Made by a program: the position numbers and the translations under genes
Shown here: positions 1,716-54,803 of the stretch, piece by piece
Position numbering within the stretch: position 1 is the stretch's first letter
Layout: every line of letters starts with the position of its first letter
Origin: Pontibacter aydingkolensis
GTDB lineage: Bacteria > Bacteroidota > Bacteroidia > Cytophagales > Hymenobacteraceae
Direction: 5' to 3'
Length of the DNA stretch: 64,000 bases
NCBI RefSeq assembly: GCF_019443125.1
Contig: NZ_JAHYXK010000005.1
Span: 186,001-250,000 of the forward strand
The notes under the pieces: generated by a model
The model's database searches: none
The model's input: only the letters and a program-made list of their open reading frames with translations
What the model was told of the DNA's origin: nothing

Positions 1716-1838
1716 AGACCTCGCAGCGTCCGGAGGGCCTGCGAGTGTCTGGAATTGAAAGGCCTTTGCTCGTGCAGAGTTACTGCTTCGCAGATGACAG
1801 GTCAGACGCTCGCGGGTCATAAAGACGCCGCAAGGTCT
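1716..1838 (-). repeat. REPIN copy 1: two inverted 35-nt REP sequences with spacer
   Basis: Two 35-nt imperfect palindromes at 1716-1750 and 1804-1838 are separated by 53 bp. Each begins AGAC and ends GTCT and contains CTCGC/GCGAG-type arms (CTCGCAG at 1720-1726 pairs with CTGCGAG at 1739-1745). Read on the minus strand the order is the same as in the copy beside the RAYT gene at 13470-13583: first the REP whose centre reads GTCTTTAnGACCCG, then the REP whose centre reads TCCGGACGCTG. The spacers also share CGAAGCA followed by GCCTTT. It fills the gap between the converging ctlX and metF genes and could end transcription from both. Confidence 0.85.
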
Positions 1839-6882: not shown

Positions 6883-7007
6883 CTAAGGCAGGATATACAA
6901 TCTTATCTTTTCCCGGCTAAAGTATAGCAGAGAAGGGAATTAGCACCAGGCTTGTACAAGGTTGCTAAGACGTCACAGGGCCCTATCCCTCAGTCTTTCT
7001 TGATAAG
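6865..7007 (-). ncRNA. SAM-I (S-box) riboswitch in the metH leader
   Basis: On the minus strand the P1 helix is a perfect 15-bp pair: CTTATCAAGAAAGAC (7007-6993) with its complement (6879-6865). Between them are the conserved SAM-I core pieces in order: GAGGGA, GGGCCC, AGCAACC and GGTGCTAATTCCC. The aptamer ends 37 nt before the metH ATG. No run of T follows P1, so control is probably at translation initiation or by another structure rather than by an intrinsic terminator. The assignment rests on established S-box conservation and the direct match with a methionine synthase gene. Confidence 0.95.
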
Positions 7008-7091
7008 AAGCTGCAATTTAAACAGATATATGTGAAATACGAAATCTTTTGAATATAGATGTGATCTGTTTTTGAAATGGCTATAAAACAG

Positions 7092-9888: not shown

Positions 9889-12267
9889 ATGTTAGTAGTT
9901 AAAAGAGACGGCAGACGCGAATCCGTCAAATTCGATAAGATTACAGCACGCATCGAGAAGCTGTGCTATGGCCTGCACATGGATTACGTGTCGCCAATTG
10001 AGGTAGCTAAAAAGGTGATTGACGGTATCTATGATGGTGTTACCACTGTAGAGCTGGACAACCTGGCAGCCGAAACAGCTGCATCGCTTACTACCAAGCA
10101 CCCGGATTATGCGGTATTGGCAGCGCGTGTGGCGATCTCTAACCTGCACAAAGTTACAAGCAAGTCGTTCTCGAACACCATGAAGCGGCTTTATACTTAC
10201 ACCGACCCTAAAACCGGTGAAAACGCTTCTTTGATCGCGAAAGATGTATATGAGATTATCCGTAAGAATGCGGCCCTGCTCGACTCAACCATCATTTACG
10301 ACCGCGACTATAACTACGATTTCTTCGGCTACAAAACCCTGGAGCGCTCATACTTACTGCGCCTGGACGGCAAGATCGTGGAACGTCCGCAGCACATGCT
10401 GATGCGTGTGGCCGTGGGTATACACAAAGAGGATATTGAGTCTGCTATTGAGACTTACAACCTGATGTCGGAGAAGTGGTTTACACATGCTACGCCAACA
10501 CTGTTTAACGCTGGTACGCCTAAACCGCAACTGTCGTCGTGCTTCCTGCTTGCCATGAAGGATGATAGCATACCAGGTATTTACGATACCCTGAAGCAAT
10601 GCGCACAGATTTCGCAAAGCGCCGGTGGTATTGGTTTGAGCATCCATAACGTAAGAGCAACTGGATCATACATCAAAGGCACCAACGGCACATCCAACGG
10701 CATCATCCCGATGCTGAAGGTGTTTAACGACACAGCCCGCTATGTAGACCAAGGTGGTGGCAAGCGTAAAGGCGCTTTCGCTATTTACCTGGAGCCATGG
10801 CACGCCGATATCTTTGACTTCCTGGAGTTGAAGAAGAACCACGGTAAAGAAGAAAACCGTGCCCGTGACCTGTTCTATGCCCTCTGGACGCCAGACTTGT
10901 TTATGAAGCGCGTAGAGGAAAACGGCGACTGGAGCCTGTTCTGCCCGAACGAAGCGCCTGGCCTTGCCGAGTGTTGGGGTAAAGATTTTGAGCGTCTGTA
11001 CGAGAAGTATGAGCGCGAAGGCCGTGCCCGCAAAACGGTAAAAGCACAGGACTTGTGGTTCCATATCCTGGAGTCGCAGATCGAGACTGGTACGCCATAC
11101 ATGCTGTACAAAGACCACGCAAACCGCAAGTCTAACCAGCAGAACCTTGGTACTATCAAGTCTTCGAACTTGTGTACCGAAATTATGGAGTACACCAGCG
11201 AAGATGAGGTAGCAGTTTGTAACCTGGCTTCTCTGGCACTGCCTCGCTTTGTGAAAGAGGAGAACGGCCACAAGACCTTCGACCACCAGAAGCTATTTGA
11301 TGTAACCTACCATGCTACTGTTAACCTGAACAAGGTTATCGACATAAACTATTACCCGGTAAAAGAGGCACAGAACTCGAATATGCGTCACCGCCCAATC
11401 GGTTTAGGTGTGCAGGGTCTGGCGGATACCTTTATTCACCTGCGCATGCCATTCGAAAGCGATGAGGCTAAAGGGTTGAACAAAGATATCTTCGAGACGA
11501 TTTACTTTGCCTCCATGACGGCTTCGAAGGACCTGGCTAAAAAGAATGGTGCTTACGAAACATTCAAAGGTTCTCCGTTAGCGGAAGGCAAGTTCCAGTT
11601 TGATATGTGGGGCGTTACGCCAGAGAGTGGCCGTTGGGATTGGGAAGAACTGCGCCAGGAAGTTGTGAAGCACGGTGTACGTAACTCGCTTTTAGTAGCG
11701 CCAATGCCTACTGCTTCTACTGCGCAGATTTTGGGTAACAACGAATCGTTCGAGCCTTATACTTCTAACATTTACCTGCGCCGCGTATTGTCTGGCGAGT
11801 TTATGGTAGTTAACAAGCATCTGCTTAAAGACCTGATCGCGCTTGGCCTATGGAATGATAACATGAAGAACCAGATCATCGCAGCCAACGGTTCTGTACA
11901 GGATATCCCGAACATCCCGCAGAACATCAAAGATCTTTATAAGACAGTGTGGGAGATCAGCCAGCGTACGGTAATCGACATGAGTGCTGATCGTGGCGCT
12001 TACATCTGCCAGAGCCAATCGCTGAACCTGCACGTAATGAATGTGAACTTCGGTAAGCTGACCTCGATGCACTTCCATGCATGGAAACGCGGCCTGAAAA
12101 CAGGTATGTATTACCTGCGCACCAAAGCCGCTGTAGACGCCATTAAGTTCACAGTTGAGAAACAAGCCGCTGAAACCCTATCACCGGTTTACAACCAGGA
12201 TCAGAATCGCAGCGACATGAGCTGCTCGCTGGATAACCCAGACGCTTGCGAAGCTTGCGGATCGTAA
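9889..12267 (+). CDS. nrdA: Class I ribonucleotide reductase, large (alpha) subunit
   Basis: A 792-residue catalytic subunit. An N-terminal ATP-cone for allosteric activity control covers roughly residues 1-95 (V-V-K-R-D-G-R-R-E onward). The catalytic barrel contains S-S-C-F-L-L (redox Cys), the loop S-S-N-L-C-T-E-I (thiyl-radical Cys region), V-A-V-C-N-L-A-S (second redox Cys) and [12 protein letters not shown] with the radical-path Tyr region downstream. The C-terminal C-E-A-C pair is the swinging thiol that accepts electrons from thioredoxin or glutaredoxin. Start is the ATG at 9889. A strong terminator follows the stop. Confidence 0.98.
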
Positions 12268-12398: not shown

Positions 12399-13447
12399 AT
12401 GGATACTGTTACCATAACCGGCAGCGGTCTTAACTACATTATTGCAGATATAGTTAAGAAATACTCCCAAGAAAAAACATATTATCATCTTAAAGACGAA
12501 CTAGAACAAGCATATAACGATCTTTTGGGATTGAATAACTTGTGGGGAGAATTAGATGACATTCTTAATAGCCCAACATTAGCTTTTCCATCTAAAAATG
12601 GTGAAGAGATTATCCAGTACTACCAGTCTGTCTTTGAATCTAGTCTCTTCAAAAACATGATAAGTAGAGAGTACAATGTCGAATATTCTGCAGCTTCGCA
12701 TCAAAACCTACTTCAGGACGAAATTAAAAGAATTGGCTATCGTTTTCTGAGTTTGAAAAAAGAGGAGGATACAGCAACATTAAGAGGCTATTCCCTAACC
12801 TTGGGGAAAGCTTTCTACAGCTCCTCACAAAGAACAACATTGATAAGATGCATATCTATACCTTAAATTATGATGGTATACTTGATACTCTATTAACACA
12901 TCGAGGAAAAGGCTATCAAGGACAAGAATATCTGTTTAAGGACAGCTTCTACTTTGGTGATTTTCAACCAAGGAAGCTAGAAAGCTTACCGTTTCTTATG
13001 GCTCATCTACATGGCTCTTACAAGTTTAGAAGAGGTAGGCAGTTTACTTCAAAGCTAAGAAGGGAAGTTGTTAATGATAATCCAGTTATGATTTATAATA
13101 GTCCTAAGCTTAAGGAAGCTTTAATAAAGGAAGATACTGTATTGAAGACATATTATAATCAGCTATCAAAGGACCTTCAAACATACCAGAGGTTAATAAT
13201 ATTAGGTTGTTCTTTCAAAACTGAGCCTCACCTAAGGCACCTTATAGAAAAGTACTTTAATAGACATGGAACAGAAGTGATAGTATGTTCCGACAAGCCT
13301 GAAGAGATAGTATCAATTTTAGAACCACATTATAACTTTCCTATTTATACTCAATCAACAGAGCATGTAAAGTCAGAGAAGCAACTTATTGAGCTATTTG
13401 ATAAGCTATTTAGCGCTACGAGTATGGAGATACTTGCTACAGCATAA
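12399..13447 (+). pseudogene. Frameshifted SIR2-like (DUF4917-like) protein gene
   Basis: Two overlapping frames join into one protein of about 350 residues. The first frame (12399 on) opens with I-T-G-S-G-L-N, a Rossmann glycine loop. The second (ending 13447) carries Y-T-L-N-Y-D, H-L-H-G-S and I-L-G-C-S-F-K-T-E-P-H-L, motifs of SIR2-like NAD-binding-type proteins. The second frame stays open well upstream of its first ATG (12848), giving a natural N-P-N-L-G-E-S-F-like sequence, so the break lies near the TTTT at 12743-12746: one missing T restores the frame. SIR2-like genes are often antiphage, but no partner gene is present. The stretch is visibly more AT-rich than neighbouring genes, which hints at transfer. 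Family name is tentative. Confidence 0.65.
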
Positions 13448-13469: not shown

Positions 13470-13583
13470 AGACCTCGCGGTGTCTTTACGACCCGCGAGC
13501 GTCTAACCTACCAATACCCTATCAACGAAGCAACAGCCTTTACACACCAGACGCTCGCAGGACCTTCGGACGCTGCGAGGTCT
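13470..13583 (+). repeat. REPIN copy 2, beside the RAYT gene
   Basis: REP sequences at 13470-13504 and 13549-13583 face each other across a 44-bp spacer. The left one starts AGACCTCGCGGTGTCTTTAC and ends GCGAGCGTCT; the right one starts AGACGCTCGCAGGACC and ends CGCTGCGAGGTCT. Order, orientation and spacer landmarks (CGAAGCA, GCCTTT) match copy 1 at 1716-1838. It ends 28 bp from the stop codon of the RAYT gene. Confidence 0.88.
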
Positions 13584-13611
13584 ATCGGTTTAATACGAGG
13601 TCTTTAGTTTT

Positions 13612-14226
13612 TTATACTTCATCGCCTTCTATAAGCGGAGCTATACTTGTAAAATCGGCAGCGTTCTCATCGTGAAAGGCTTTATACTTTTCTCTGCCTC
13701 CAAACCACTCTAGCACCTCTTTCCGCTGCAGGGCTGTTTTGCCTTCTGAAAGTATACTATGGTAAGAGGAGTGAGGCCATCTGCTGAAATCATTTATCAA
13801 GCCATGATGCTGCGGGTTGAAATGGATATAAAAGACAAGCCTGGTAAAGTATGCATCAGAAGTAATCTCTTTTCTGCCAAACCTGTGCTGGAACAGCCGC
13901 CCAATACGGTTGTAGCGGTGGTTTATACTTTTAGCATAAGCATTGAGCAAGTGCCCCAACTGCCGCTCAATACTTACCAGCTTCGCTTCGTCTTCGCTTA
14001 TCAATTGTGGCTTTAAATCCTCCCCATCTTTTATCTGAACCAGGAAGTGAACGTGGTTAGGCAGCAGGCAATACGCAAAAGTATCAACATAAGACGCCAA
14101 GTGCTTCCTGTACAGCTGCAGAAAAAGGCCATAATTGTCCTGCTCTTTAAAGAGTGTCTCTTTGTTATTGCCACGGGTGTAGATGTGATAAAACTTATTC
14201 GGCTCCAGCGGTGACTTTTGTTGCAT
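13612..14226 (-). CDS. REP-associated tyrosine transposase (RAYT, IS200-like Y1 family)
   Basis: A 204-residue single-strand DNA transposase relative. The HUH metal-binding motif is H58-V-H60 in L-P-N-H-V-H-F-L-V; the RAYT-typical Y-I-H-F-N-P-Q-H-H-G-L is at about 133-143, followed by W-P-H-S-S-Y. RAYTs are single-copy domesticated transposases believed to move or maintain REP sequences by nicking at hairpins. A composite REP element lies immediately downstream and a matching copy occurs 12 kb away, which identifies the probable substrate. The gene appears intact. No terminal repeats of an ordinary insertion sequence are seen. Confidence 0.9.
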   Translation of the reverse strand: MQQKSPLEPNKFYHIYTRGNNKETLFKEQDNYGLFLQLYRKHLASYVDTFAYCLLPNHVHFLVQIKDGEDLKPQLISEDEAKLVSIERQLGHLLNAYAKSINHRYNRIGRLFQHRFGRKEITSDAYFTRLVFYIHFNPQHHGLINDFSRWPHSSYHSILSEGKTALQRKEVLEWFGGREKYKAFHDENAADFTSIAPLIEGDEV

Positions 14227-38901: not shown

Positions 38902-38909
38902 TTCATTCT

Positions 38910-38965
38910 AAGTATAAAACAGCAATGGCGCAGTCTGCAGACTGCGCCATTGCTGTTTTATACTT
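38910..38965. terminator. Perfect 56-bp palindrome, bidirectional terminator
   Basis: Both arms are exact reverse complements centred on CTGCAG. The outer ends are AAGTATAAAACAGC and its complement GCTGTTTTATACTT, so the window-wide heptamer forms the base of the stem. It lies between the converging DUF6952-like and TetR genes and overlaps the TetR stop by two bases. Confidence 0.88.
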
Positions 38966-39572
38966 ATATGCTGTTTCTTGAGAAAAACTCTTCGGCCTGC
39001 TTTCCTCCAGCCTCTGTACAAATGCCACGCACATAGTATAGGTAAATGCTCCGGAACACTTCAGCAAGGTTATACTTTTCCGGCGGAAACACCGCCGGGT
39101 TGATCATCATAAAGAATTGCTCCAGTATGATCTTTGTAACCAGTTGTAGGTTCAGGTCTTTCCGGAAGTAGCCTCCCAGCACACCCCGGTTTAATATCTC
39201 AGCGTTTACCTGCTGGTTGTCTGTAGTTACATACTCTATGGTTTCCTGCCAGGCTTCCGGAAACTTCTGCAGATCGGCTATAAACACTGGGTTTATCTGA
39301 TTCATTTTATTAATACCATTCACCAGCAACAGCATGATTTCCTCAACTGGGTTGGTAGCCTTTGCAAGCAGTTCTGCTTTTTCGCGTTTTTGCTGCTCAA
39401 TGTCAAACCGGGTCACCTGCAACACCATGTTTTCTTTACTCGAGAACAGTTCGTGAAAGGTAGAGGCCCTAATGTCCAGCTTACGGATTATATCAGCTTC
39501 TGAGTTGGTTTCTATGCCTTCTCTTTTAAATATCTGGAGTATCTCATCCAGAATCGTTTCCAGAAACGTCAT
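38964..39572 (-). CDS. TetR/AcrR-type transcriptional regulator
   Basis: A 202-residue regulator. The N-terminal helix-turn-helix is I-L-D-E-I-L-Q-I-F-K-R-E-G then A-D-I-I-R-K-L-D-I-R-A-S-T-F-H-E-L-F-S-S-K-E-N, the typical TetR pattern (S-x-x-F-x-x-x-F-x-x-K). The C-terminal ligand-binding part is helix-rich with no recognised ligand class. It is next to the CruF/CrtD genes on the same strand and could control them, which is inference from position. Confidence 0.85.
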   Translation of the reverse strand: MTFLETILDEILQIFKREGIETNSEADIIRKLDIRASTFHELFSSKENMVLQVTRFDIEQQKREKAELLAKATNPVEEIMLLLVNGINKMNQINPVFIADLQKFPEAWQETIEYVTTDNQQVNAEILNRGVLGGYFRKDLNLQLVTKIILEQFFMMINPAVFPPEKYNLAEVFRSIYLYYVRGICTEAGGKQAEEFFSRNSI

Positions 39573-42429: not shown

Positions 42430-42464
42430 AGACGCTCGCAGGGCCTCCGGACACTTCGAGGTCT
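42430..42464 (+). repeat. Solitary REP sequence (35 nt)
   Basis: Starts AGACGCTCGCAGGGCCTC and ends CACTTCGAGGTCT. It is the right-hand type of the composite elements at 13470 and 1716, without a partner half, between the SRPBCC gene and the helicase gene. Confidence 0.85.
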
Positions 42465-52553: not shown

Positions 52554-54803
52554 TTACTGCTTTATGAACTTTACCTGGTACACCTTTCCGCCAAGCTCAA
52601 TGGTTAGTATGTACATTCCCTTTTCTAATGTATCAACCATAGGTAAGTCTAACTCATTTGGCCCTTTTAGCACGATAACATCTCTACTATAAATGCGCTT
52701 GCCTGCTAACGAGCTCAGGTGCATGCTTGCTTTTACACTTTCATTTGAGTTAAGCACTAGCTTTGATCTGCTGTTAACCGGATTTGGCACCACTTTAGGC
52801 TGTGTTTGTTCCTTATAAGCTGAGGTTTCAATTGCCACTATATTGCTATAACTGGAAGTACCGTCAAAGTCTACCTGCTTAAGGCGGAAGTATAGCGTAT
52901 TCCCGTAGTTAAGCAGAAGCTGCTGGTGTTTGTAACTTGTAGCTGTAGAGCTGTTTCCTACTTTACTTGCAACTGTGGCTACTTTTGTAAAGTTATTCAA
53001 TGACCCAACAGCCATTTCTATCTCAAAGTGAGAGTTATCCTTTTCAGCTGCTGTTCTCCACTCAAATACTACATTCCTGTCTTTAGGCTTGGCTGTAAAG
53101 AAAACTAACTCTACAGGCATTGGCCCAACAGCTGTAGCATTAATAGCCAAGGTATTGCTTGTTGATCCCTGTGTATGTATAACAGACCCAGTATGAGGAC
53201 TTCCCGCCGCGGTTTCTGCCAGTGGAGCATACCTTACGTAAATTGTGGTAGCATTAAGCCTGTTGTTTGATACACCAGTCAAGTCTAAAGATCGGCTATA
53301 GACACCATCCAAAGCAGTTGAGATTGTAAAGGGACTCGTCGCATCACTAATATTAAGTGATACTGCAACTCCATTTGTTAAGCCTTGTCCACTTACCTGA
53401 TATTGTTGAACTTCAGTGCTGTTAGCAGGCACATCGGTAAAGCTGATTGTGTTGGGGGTAATAGTAATATATGCGTTAGTAATGGTATATGTTGCAGAAC
53501 TGTAATCAGATCCTCCTGATGCTATTACTCTTATTCTGCCGGTAGTTGCAGTAGCAGGGACTGTTACCCACAGTTCTGTATCGCTTATGACTGAGAAGTT
53601 AGTCGTACGAGCTTGATTTATATATATATCTGTTGTCCCAGTAAAATTCTGCCCATAAATTTTTATAGTAGTGCCTATAGGACCTGAAGATGGAGAGAAA
53701 GAATTGATTATAGGGGAACCTTCAACAGTAAATGTACCTGAGGAATATCCTTGCCCATTAATAGAACGAACTACAATTGATGCAGAGGAGGCCATATAAG
53801 GAACTTTGACTTTAATTTCATTTTCCGTCACAGATAAGAAAGCATTCGACTCTACAGTGCCACTTCCTATATATACATGAGTAGCTCCAGCAAAATTTTG
53901 ACCTGTTATAGTTATTACATCGCCCACACGTGCAGAGCTAGGATCAAAAGAATTTACAACAGGAGCACCTTCAACAGTAAATATACCTGAGGCAGTCACT
54001 TGCCCGTTAAGAGTTGTCACAACCACCCTACCTGTAGAGGCTAGCGCTGGAACTCTCACCCGCAGCTCCGTATCACTTACCATTTTAAAGTCAGTGGTCG
54101 AACCAATCCCTATACTTACTTTAGTTACATCCTTAAGATTCTGCCCATTAACTGTTATTTCAGCACCCACGGGACCCGAAGATGGAGTAAAACCGCTGAT
54201 TGTTGGTGCACCTGTGACTGTGAAATTTGTAGAACTTGTCACTTGCCCATTAAGAGTTCTCACGACCACTCTACCTGTAGAGGCTAGCGCTGGAACTCTC
54301 ACCCGCAGCTCCGTATCACTTACCATTGTAAAGTCAGTGGTCCATCCATTCCCTATATACACCCTAGTTACGTCCTTAAGGTTCTGCCCATTAACTGTTA
54401 TTTCAGCACCCACGGGACCCGAAGATGGAGTAAAACCGCTGATTGTTGGTGCACCTGTGACTGTGAAGTCTGTAGAACTGGACCCTTTACCACTGCTAGA
54501 CCATACTTGCAACTTGCCTGTGGCAGCATACTCATGTACCCTTAGCCTTATTTCTGTATTACTAACAATTGTAAAACTGGCTCCCATTAAACTTCCTATA
54601 AATACAGAAGAAGCATTGTTAAAATTAGTTCCCTTAATTATTAACTCATCTCCAACTCGGCCTTCAGAAGGTGAAAAAGAGGTAATAGTAGGAGCAGAGC
54701 TTTGTGCTTGGCTATCAACTACAGCACATAAGATGAGCATGCATTTTAACAGTAGTATTGCAAGCAGCTTGCTTTTACGAAGGTGAGCGTAAAGTTGTGC
54801 CAT
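52554..54803 (-). CDS. Secreted multi-TIG/IPT protein with T9SS sorting domain
   Basis: About 749 residues from the ATG at 54801-54803 (an in-frame TTG at 54842 adds 13). Signal peptide ends D-S-Q-A-Q. Five IPT/TIG immunoglobulin-like repeats of about 80 residues follow (openings such as P-T-I-S-G-F-T-P-S-S-G-P-V-G), then a spacer, L-P/M-P-V-E-L-V-F-F with a fibronectin-like linker, and a C-terminal T9SS domain (V-P-N-P-V-N-S-R-S-K-L ending F-I-K-Q). Repeats 2 and 3 are nearly identical in DNA. It is likely a surface adhesin or binding protein. Confidence 0.85.
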   Translation of the reverse strand: MAQLYAHLRKSKLLAILLLKCMLILCAVVDSQAQSSAPTITSFSPSEGRVGDELIIKGTNFNNASSVFIGSLMGASFTIVSNTEIRLRVHEYAATGKLQVWSSSGKGSSSTDFTVTGAPTISGFTPSSGPVGAEITVNGQNLKDVTRVYIGNGWTTDFTMVSDTELRVRVPALASTGRVVVRTLNGQVTSSTNFTVTGAPTISGFTPSSGPVGAEITVNGQNLKDVTKVSIGIGSTTDFKMVSDTELRVRVPALASTGRVVVTTLNGQVTASGIFTVEGAPVVNSFDPSSARVGDVITITGQNFAGATHVYIGSGTVESNAFLSVTENEIKVKVPYMASSASIVVRSINGQGYSSGTFTVEGSPIINSFSPSSGPIGTTIKIYGQNFTGTTDIYINQARTTNFSVISDTELWVTVPATATTGRIRVIASGGSDYSSATYTITNAYITITPNTISFTDVPANSTEVQQYQVSGQGLTNGVAVSLNISDATSPFTISTALDGVYSRSLDLTGVSNNRLNATTIYVRYAPLAETAAGSPHTGSVIHTQGSTSNTLAINATAVGPMPVELVFFTAKPKDRNVVFEWRTAAEKDNSHFEIEMAVGSLNNFTKVATVASKVGNSSTATSYKHQQLLLNYGNTLYFRLKQVDFDGTSSYSNIVAIETSAYKEQTQPKVVPNPVNSRSKLVLNSNESVKASMHLSSLAGKRIYSRDVIVLKGPNELDLPMVDTLEKGMYILTIELGGKVYQVKFIKQ
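53983..54468 (-). repeat. Tandem 243-bp repeat inside the TIG gene
   Basis: Two adjacent 81-codon units are close to identical; the plus-strand stretch CAGCACCCACGGGACCCGAA occurs at 54161 and 54404, and identity runs over 200 bp with scattered differences. A recent duplication is the simplest reading. Confidence 0.8.

Follow-up and report, generated by a model that had tools for sequence, protein, structure and literature searches.

A probable REPIN-RAYT system of Bacteroidota type in Pontibacter

The window analysed here, a 64,000-nucleotide stretch of the Pontibacter aydingkolensis genome, contains a RAYT gene with two inverted hairpin repeats next to it. Combining the repeat population of this genome with a survey of the genus, we consider it very probable that the gene and the repeats together make up the Bacteroidota type of REPIN-RAYT system. 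The original prediction, made from the sequence of the window, is partly supported by our analysis; it was right in kind, and too strong in calling the system active and in its claim to novelty.

The RAYT and its hairpins

As predicted, a gene with HUH and Y-I-H-x-N-P motifs is followed directly downstream by two inverted 35-nt REPs, and both the open reading frame and the repeats were found at the expected positions. The RAYT frame (13612..14226, minus strand, stop codon 13612-13614) is intact and encodes a TnpA-REP-type Y1 HUH protein of 204 aa with the motifs N57-H58-V59-H60 and Y133-I-H-F-N-P. The protein matches the NCBIfam model NF047646 (REP_Tyr_transpos) with an E-value of 1.1e-17 and 64.3 bits, below the curated cut-off of 80, which is a threshold for naming and no biological criterion. 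A Pfam search of the protein gave no match. Its sole PDB sequence match is 4ER8, a structure of E. coli TnpA-REP with its REP hairpin. The same entry is the top Foldseek match (E 1.4e-9; 17% identity in the structural alignment) of an AlphaFold model with a pLDDT of 85.5 and low confidence at residues ~70-80, and is followed by the ISDra2 and IS608 transposases. The HUH and catalytic tyrosine motifs together with the match of the model to 4ER8 identify the Y1 HUH fold of a RAYT/TnpA-REP. This fold is shared with the IS200/IS605 transposases (IS608, ISDra2), whose hairpin ends differ between left and right. Those elements are self-mobile and multicopy, whereas the RAYT of this type is present in one copy in its genome, stands at a fixed locus and showed no self-mobility.

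The REPIN adjacent to the RAYT lies 31 nt downstream of it and consists of two inverted 35-nt hairpins with unlike loops. The L half (13470..13504, head on the minus strand) is of A type, with the inner stem GTC/GAC and the loop GTAAA. The spacer (13505..13548, no strand) carries the polar landmark ACGAAGCAACAGCCT. The R half (13549..13583, head on the plus strand) is of B type; its inner stem is G-A-C / G-A-C with an A.A mismatch, its loop is CTTCG and its 5' flank is CC. A second REPIN in the window (1716-1838) has the opposite orientation to the first (13470-13583), with the R half at 1716..1750 (minus strand), the spacer at 1751..1803 (no strand) and the L half at 1804..1838 (plus strand). 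The window also contains one lone R half (42430..42464, plus strand).

The halves follow the consensus 5'-AGAC R CTCGCRG GNC NNNNN GNC R CYGCGAG GTCT-3', which folds into a 4-bp foot and a 7-bp stem separated by a 1-base bulge in the 5' arm and then, beyond a 1-base bulge in the 3' arm, into a 3-bp inner stem that closes a 5-nt loop. It had been proposed that the two halves belong to different subtypes. Their loops and inner stems do differ, but both share the bulged 14-pair stem, and the L and R halves are one hairpin architecture rather than unrelated sequences. Four loop classes were distinguished, T (GTC/GAC), C (GACC/GGAC), S (GAGC/GCAC) and H (GTT/AAC), along with three stem classes, CTCGC, CTAGC and CTCAC. 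A half is usually flanked by CC at its 5' end and T at its 3' end (96% in genome G001). The GT[AG]G tetranucleotide found at the 5' foot of canonical GTAG-type REPs is absent from the flank sequences and their composition, and an Rfam search gave no family that fits these hairpins.

DNA folding reproduces the consensus hairpin exactly for the L half and nearly so for the R half, with z-scores of about -4.5 to -5.2 and about -2.3 to -2.9, respectively. Over 63 hairpin variants, 53 double-sided pair changes were counted versus 14 in shuffles, and shifting the pairing partner along the hairpin abolishes pairing in this test.

A bipartite, polar repeat dispersed through the genome

The prediction implied a repeat family extending through the genome. 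Searching the 4.72 Mb Pontibacter genome that contains the window with hairpin models and patterns gave 70 model matches, far beyond the three elements of the window; these halves make up two dozen or so pairs, and the others are single. A reversed control pattern had zero matches in 50 genomes. The folding scores, the covariation, the 70 matches and the empty control establish that the hairpins are not due to chance.

Pairing is strongly biased towards unlike halves. In nine genomes, 51 of 54 pairs are heterotypic versus 36 expected, and 3 are homotypic versus 18.2 expected; the expectation comes from within-genome shuffling, and the pairs are partly copies of copies, which leaves fewer independent events than 54. 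After each spacer was oriented by its own halves, the motif CGN(A/G)GC(A/T)(A/G) was found in the forward direction in 20 of 24 spacers and in reverse in 4, compared to ~0.3 in shuffled spacers. The REPIN is thus a bipartite and polar unit, as had been anticipated in the description of a defined bipartite element whose spacer keeps landmarks. The added statement that the halves always come in the same order needs to be relaxed, since one polarity prevails but the motif is reversed in those four spacers. Two inverted REPs, a short spacer and a mostly intergenic dispersal are the features by which a REPIN is recognised, and all three are seen here.

RAYT clades, RAYT loss and orphan repeats

Among 50 Pontibacter genomes, a RAYT of this type is intact in 12, broken in 7 and missing from 31; one genome (G006) carries one RAYT of each of two clades. 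Hairpins adjoin all 13 intact genes examined, mostly as R halves that face the gene from one or both sides, so each of these genes is flanked by its own REP family, as in a REPtron. In the RAYT tree, clade 1 contains 8 genes (support 98/99) and clade 2 contains 5. Clade 1 is flanked by CTCGC or CTAGC stems and clade 2 by CTCAC stems in 13 of 13 cases (Fisher P 0.0008, phylogeny ignored). The CTAGC variant clusters in a small number of genomes, including the sister pair G032/G026, where it is found both at the RAYT and elsewhere in the genome.

Clade-1 RAYTs adjoin nrdA and clade-2 RAYTs adjoin a Clp ATPase gene, a locus that also holds a clade-2-type RAYT in Rufibacter, Adhaeribacter and Sabulibacter. 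In the window, the conserved neighbour that fixes the RAYT locus is an open reading frame (9889..12267, plus strand; 92-98% protein identity across the genus) that we take to be nrdA, the ribonucleotide reductase large subunit. Since each clade keeps to its own locus, the RAYT is an immobile gene inherited vertically. Its dN/dS is 0.04-0.18 for pairs with unsaturated dS, many pairs being saturated, and the RAYTs of the genus are under purifying selection. Synteny at nrdA and the Clp ATPase gene and the low dN/dS together mark the RAYT as a domesticated gene that is passed on vertically.

Between nrdA and the REPIN lies a SIR2-like gene (12399..13447, plus strand, PF13289) in two overlapping frames, 12399-12866 and 12848-13447. 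It is one open reading frame in the relative G035, suggesting a frameshift or a sequencing error. The interval between nrdA and the RAYT/REP locus (12399-13447; loci L236-L265) holds a small gene that differs by Pontibacter species. Several of these variable genes are defence-like (SIR2_2, Abi_C, Mrr_cat), and the stretch downstream of nrdA is possibly a small defence hotspot.

The original prediction expected strains without the RAYT to be without the repeats. This is not the case, as 30 of the 31 RAYT-less genomes have at least one model match and at least five have 45 or more (at least 56 in G001, 67 in G018, 50 in G017, 90 in G065 and 45 in G066). Among the matches listed, after filtering, the median number of hairpins per genome is 37 with an intact RAYT, 16 with a broken one and 9 with none (intact versus none, Mann-Whitney P 0.0003, phylogeny ignored). 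The nrdA-OmpA interval can often still be made out in genomes without the RAYT, and a lone REP frequently persists in it. In G035, the SIR2-like gene is followed by the L half and then by what is left of the next gene; the RAYT and the R half are gone. G022, G030 and G065 still contain short stretches that resemble a RAYT. The RAYT has been lost repeatedly in the genus, leaving REP scars at the emptied locus. The link between REP and RAYT survives the finding of repeats in RAYT-less genomes because the loss is visible in pseudogenes, fragments and scars, and because clade and stem class match in all 13 cases.

Orphan populations of this size mean that the repeats alone no longer imply current activity. 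They may reflect recent RAYT loss, mobilisation in trans or selection on the repeats. A Pontibacter genome can have as many as ten RAYT-family genes, mostly encoding proteins of ~180-220 aa, and one of these could move the orphan repeats in the same genome. G001, a two-contig assembly in which no RAYT was detected, has eight identical R halves, as expected if another protein copied them. However, no such hairpin was found close to 29 of the 30 other RAYT-family genes whose loci were examined, and recent RAYT loss, of which many genomes keep remnants or scars, accounts equally for what is seen. We regard a mover in trans as improbable. RAYT-family genes near nrdA in G065, G017 and G030 were considered as cognate enzymes of orphan CTAGC hairpins and rejected, since the hairpins are not on both sides there and other RAYT-like loci are nearly always hairpin-free. 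In G023 (C42:165881-167227), a second RAYT-family frame is located between two fragments of a broken RAYT, as if inserted.

Selection on the repeats leads to a different view, in which the host keeps the hairpins as elements of its own, either transcription terminators or 3' structures that stabilise mRNA, and their link to the RAYT is incidental or secondary. The hairpins are scarce in divergent promoter regions and frequent between convergent genes, with 5 and 29 of 74 flanking-gene arrangements, respectively; random placement would put 25% in the divergent class (P 7e-5). Several relatives carry a terminator-like hairpin at the position of the REPIN at 1716-1838, and the populations outlive the RAYT. 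On the other hand, only one or two T usually follow a hairpin and there is no T run, and hairpin presence varies between close species. Such a view also has to accommodate the hairpins next to all intact Pontibacter RAYTs of this type, a stem class that tracks the RAYT clade, and their near absence from the loci of other RAYT-family genes. We consider it very unlikely, and a REPIN-RAYT system remains the preferred reading.

Repeats were also found near RAYT homologues outside Pontibacter, in other Bacteroidota and in Chloroflexota. Palindromes of the form ACCTnnCAGGT...ACCTGnnAGGT occur within 400 nt of 21 of 73 such homologues or inside the gene. There are 61 copies in 56 kb near the homologues versus 7 in 317 kb farther off, a density ratio of 49 that is somewhat too high because the 56 kb omits the gene bodies. 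In eight homologues the palindrome lies in the uninterrupted RAYT frame between the HUH and Tyr motifs and is read in several different frames; these insertions are at about residues 62-91 (L167, L168, L172, L174, L177, L191, L193 and L215), in other Bacteroidota, Chloroflexota and other MAGs. Judged from their sequences, the Pontibacter and Rufibacter hairpins may be palindromes of the ACCTnnCAGGT type with added bulges.

Mobility, mechanism and relation to known systems

Five REPIN sites were checked against G061, which at 98% NrdA identity is the nearest relative that we found. The REPIN is present at two of the orthologous sites, one of which has a different R half, and absent from three; the notion that all REPIN copies are old was rejected on these three. 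No REPIN is found at the G061 site orthologous to 1716-1838. A clean insertion with exact ends was seen at none of the five sites, because the orthologous intergenic DNA is too diverged. The comparison suggests that REPINs have inserted at species-specific sites.

The system had been described as likely active or recent. Activity is unproven, and RAYT-less genomes contain large orphan populations. It is well possible, although somewhat short of an even chance, that the RAYT has been retained for another cellular function and that REPs are no longer moved in this strain. Such a fossil would be compatible with a REPIN-RAYT system as regards identity, differing solely in current activity. The divergence of copies in the genome (~70-80% alike over whole units), the persistence of orphans elsewhere and the two sites common to G061 are in line with a fossil. 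Pointing the other way, the RAYT is intact with all its motifs and under strong purifying selection, the L halves of the genome are nearly identical to one another, and the match between RAYT and REP has been kept across the genus.

In the mechanism that we propose for the REPIN-RAYT system, the RAYT would act as an HUH (Y1) single-strand endonuclease that stays at one chromosomal place. Its most likely target is the bulged hairpin of the REP within single-stranded DNA such as the lagging-strand template. It would cut beside the hairpin foot via Tyr133 and then join the ends. Cutting and joining could copy the L-spacer-R unit, or the R half alone, to other intergenic places, and the repeats would persist as orphans after RAYT loss. 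Recognition of single-stranded DNA, cleavage at CT-type sites and strand transfer are assumed by analogy to the E. coli, Stenotrophomonas and Marinomonas enzymes. Cleavage of the E. coli REP requires the GTAG foot and the bulge, and occurs at CT (PMC8266576). The 4-bp foot AGAC/GTCT with its one-base bulge, followed by T, may play the guide and cleavage-site role of the canonical GTAG. A bolder proposal would be that the REPIN is obligately heterodimeric, with a distinct role for each hairpin as for the left and right ends of IS608, that the polar unit and not the single REP replicates, that AGAC/GTCT and the bulge form a new guide and cleavage code, and that the two RAYT lineages maintain two non-interacting populations in one genus. 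We put this forward tentatively and think it rather unlikely as a whole.

Among known systems, TnpAY1 subclass 2.6 (Bertels RAYT group 5) comprises Bacteroidetes RAYTs flanked by atypical repeated hairpins (PMC6006769). The Pontibacter RAYT resembles it in host phylum, in the NH[LIV]H motif, in a Y motif starting with YIH and in non-GTAG atypical structures with copies elsewhere (PMC6006769), the structures being likened to the Pontibacter hairpins by description and not by sequence. It differs in having YIHFNP instead of YIH[QN]NP, LFQ at the apparent WQ position, and 204 aa versus a median of 179. REPs inserted in frame in the RAYT gene, between the HUH and Y motifs, have been reported for subclass 2.4 (Bertels group 4) alone, a subclass that also occurs in Bacteroidetes (PMC6006769). 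The eight homologues with palindromes between the HUH and Y motifs are reminiscent of this subclass, but its GT[AG]G feet and YIxNNP motif are both missing here. The E. coli REPtron (4ER8; Y/Z2 REPs) is the best structural match and likewise has a bulged REP, inverted pairs of two subtypes and asymmetric REPINs (PMC8266576, PMC8049555, PMC6006769). It has a GTAG foot where Pontibacter has AGAC/GTCT and a bulge, its protein shares 17% identity in the structural alignment, and it belongs to another phylum.

A genuine RAYT with REPINs in Bacteroidota is thus upheld, but the novelty claimed for it is reduced, because Bacteroidetes RAYTs with atypical hairpins (PMC6006769), asymmetric REPINs in enterobacteria (PMC8049555) and REP heterodimers (PMC3733652) were already known. 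None of the papers covered by our literature search deals with Pontibacter REPs. REPIN-RAYT biology comes almost wholly from Proteobacteria, and Pontibacter widens this base with a case in which RAYT-REP co-evolution and loss are well resolved. One genus with 50 sequenced species offers intact, broken and missing RAYTs, many at a fixed locus, together with two lineages with matching hairpin classes and orphan repeats. The use of the RAYT to its host and the lifetime of REP populations after RAYT loss become testable, and the hairpins put sequences to the ‘atypical’ REPs described for this group of RAYTs.

Several other features of the window were recorded. The heptamer TATACTT/AAGTATA occurs 148 times versus 20.6 expected (order-2 Markov), on both strands and in genic and intergenic DNA. 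It is also frequent in the loci of G001 (L116-L155; 184 versus 13.9 expected) and not enriched in Rufibacter loci (1 versus 1.5). A SAM riboswitch (RF00162, 71 bits) lies at 6900-7009 on the minus strand, a perfect 29-nt inverted repeat without spacer at 38909-38966, and a tandem duplication of 243 nt, 93% identical, at 53995-54480.
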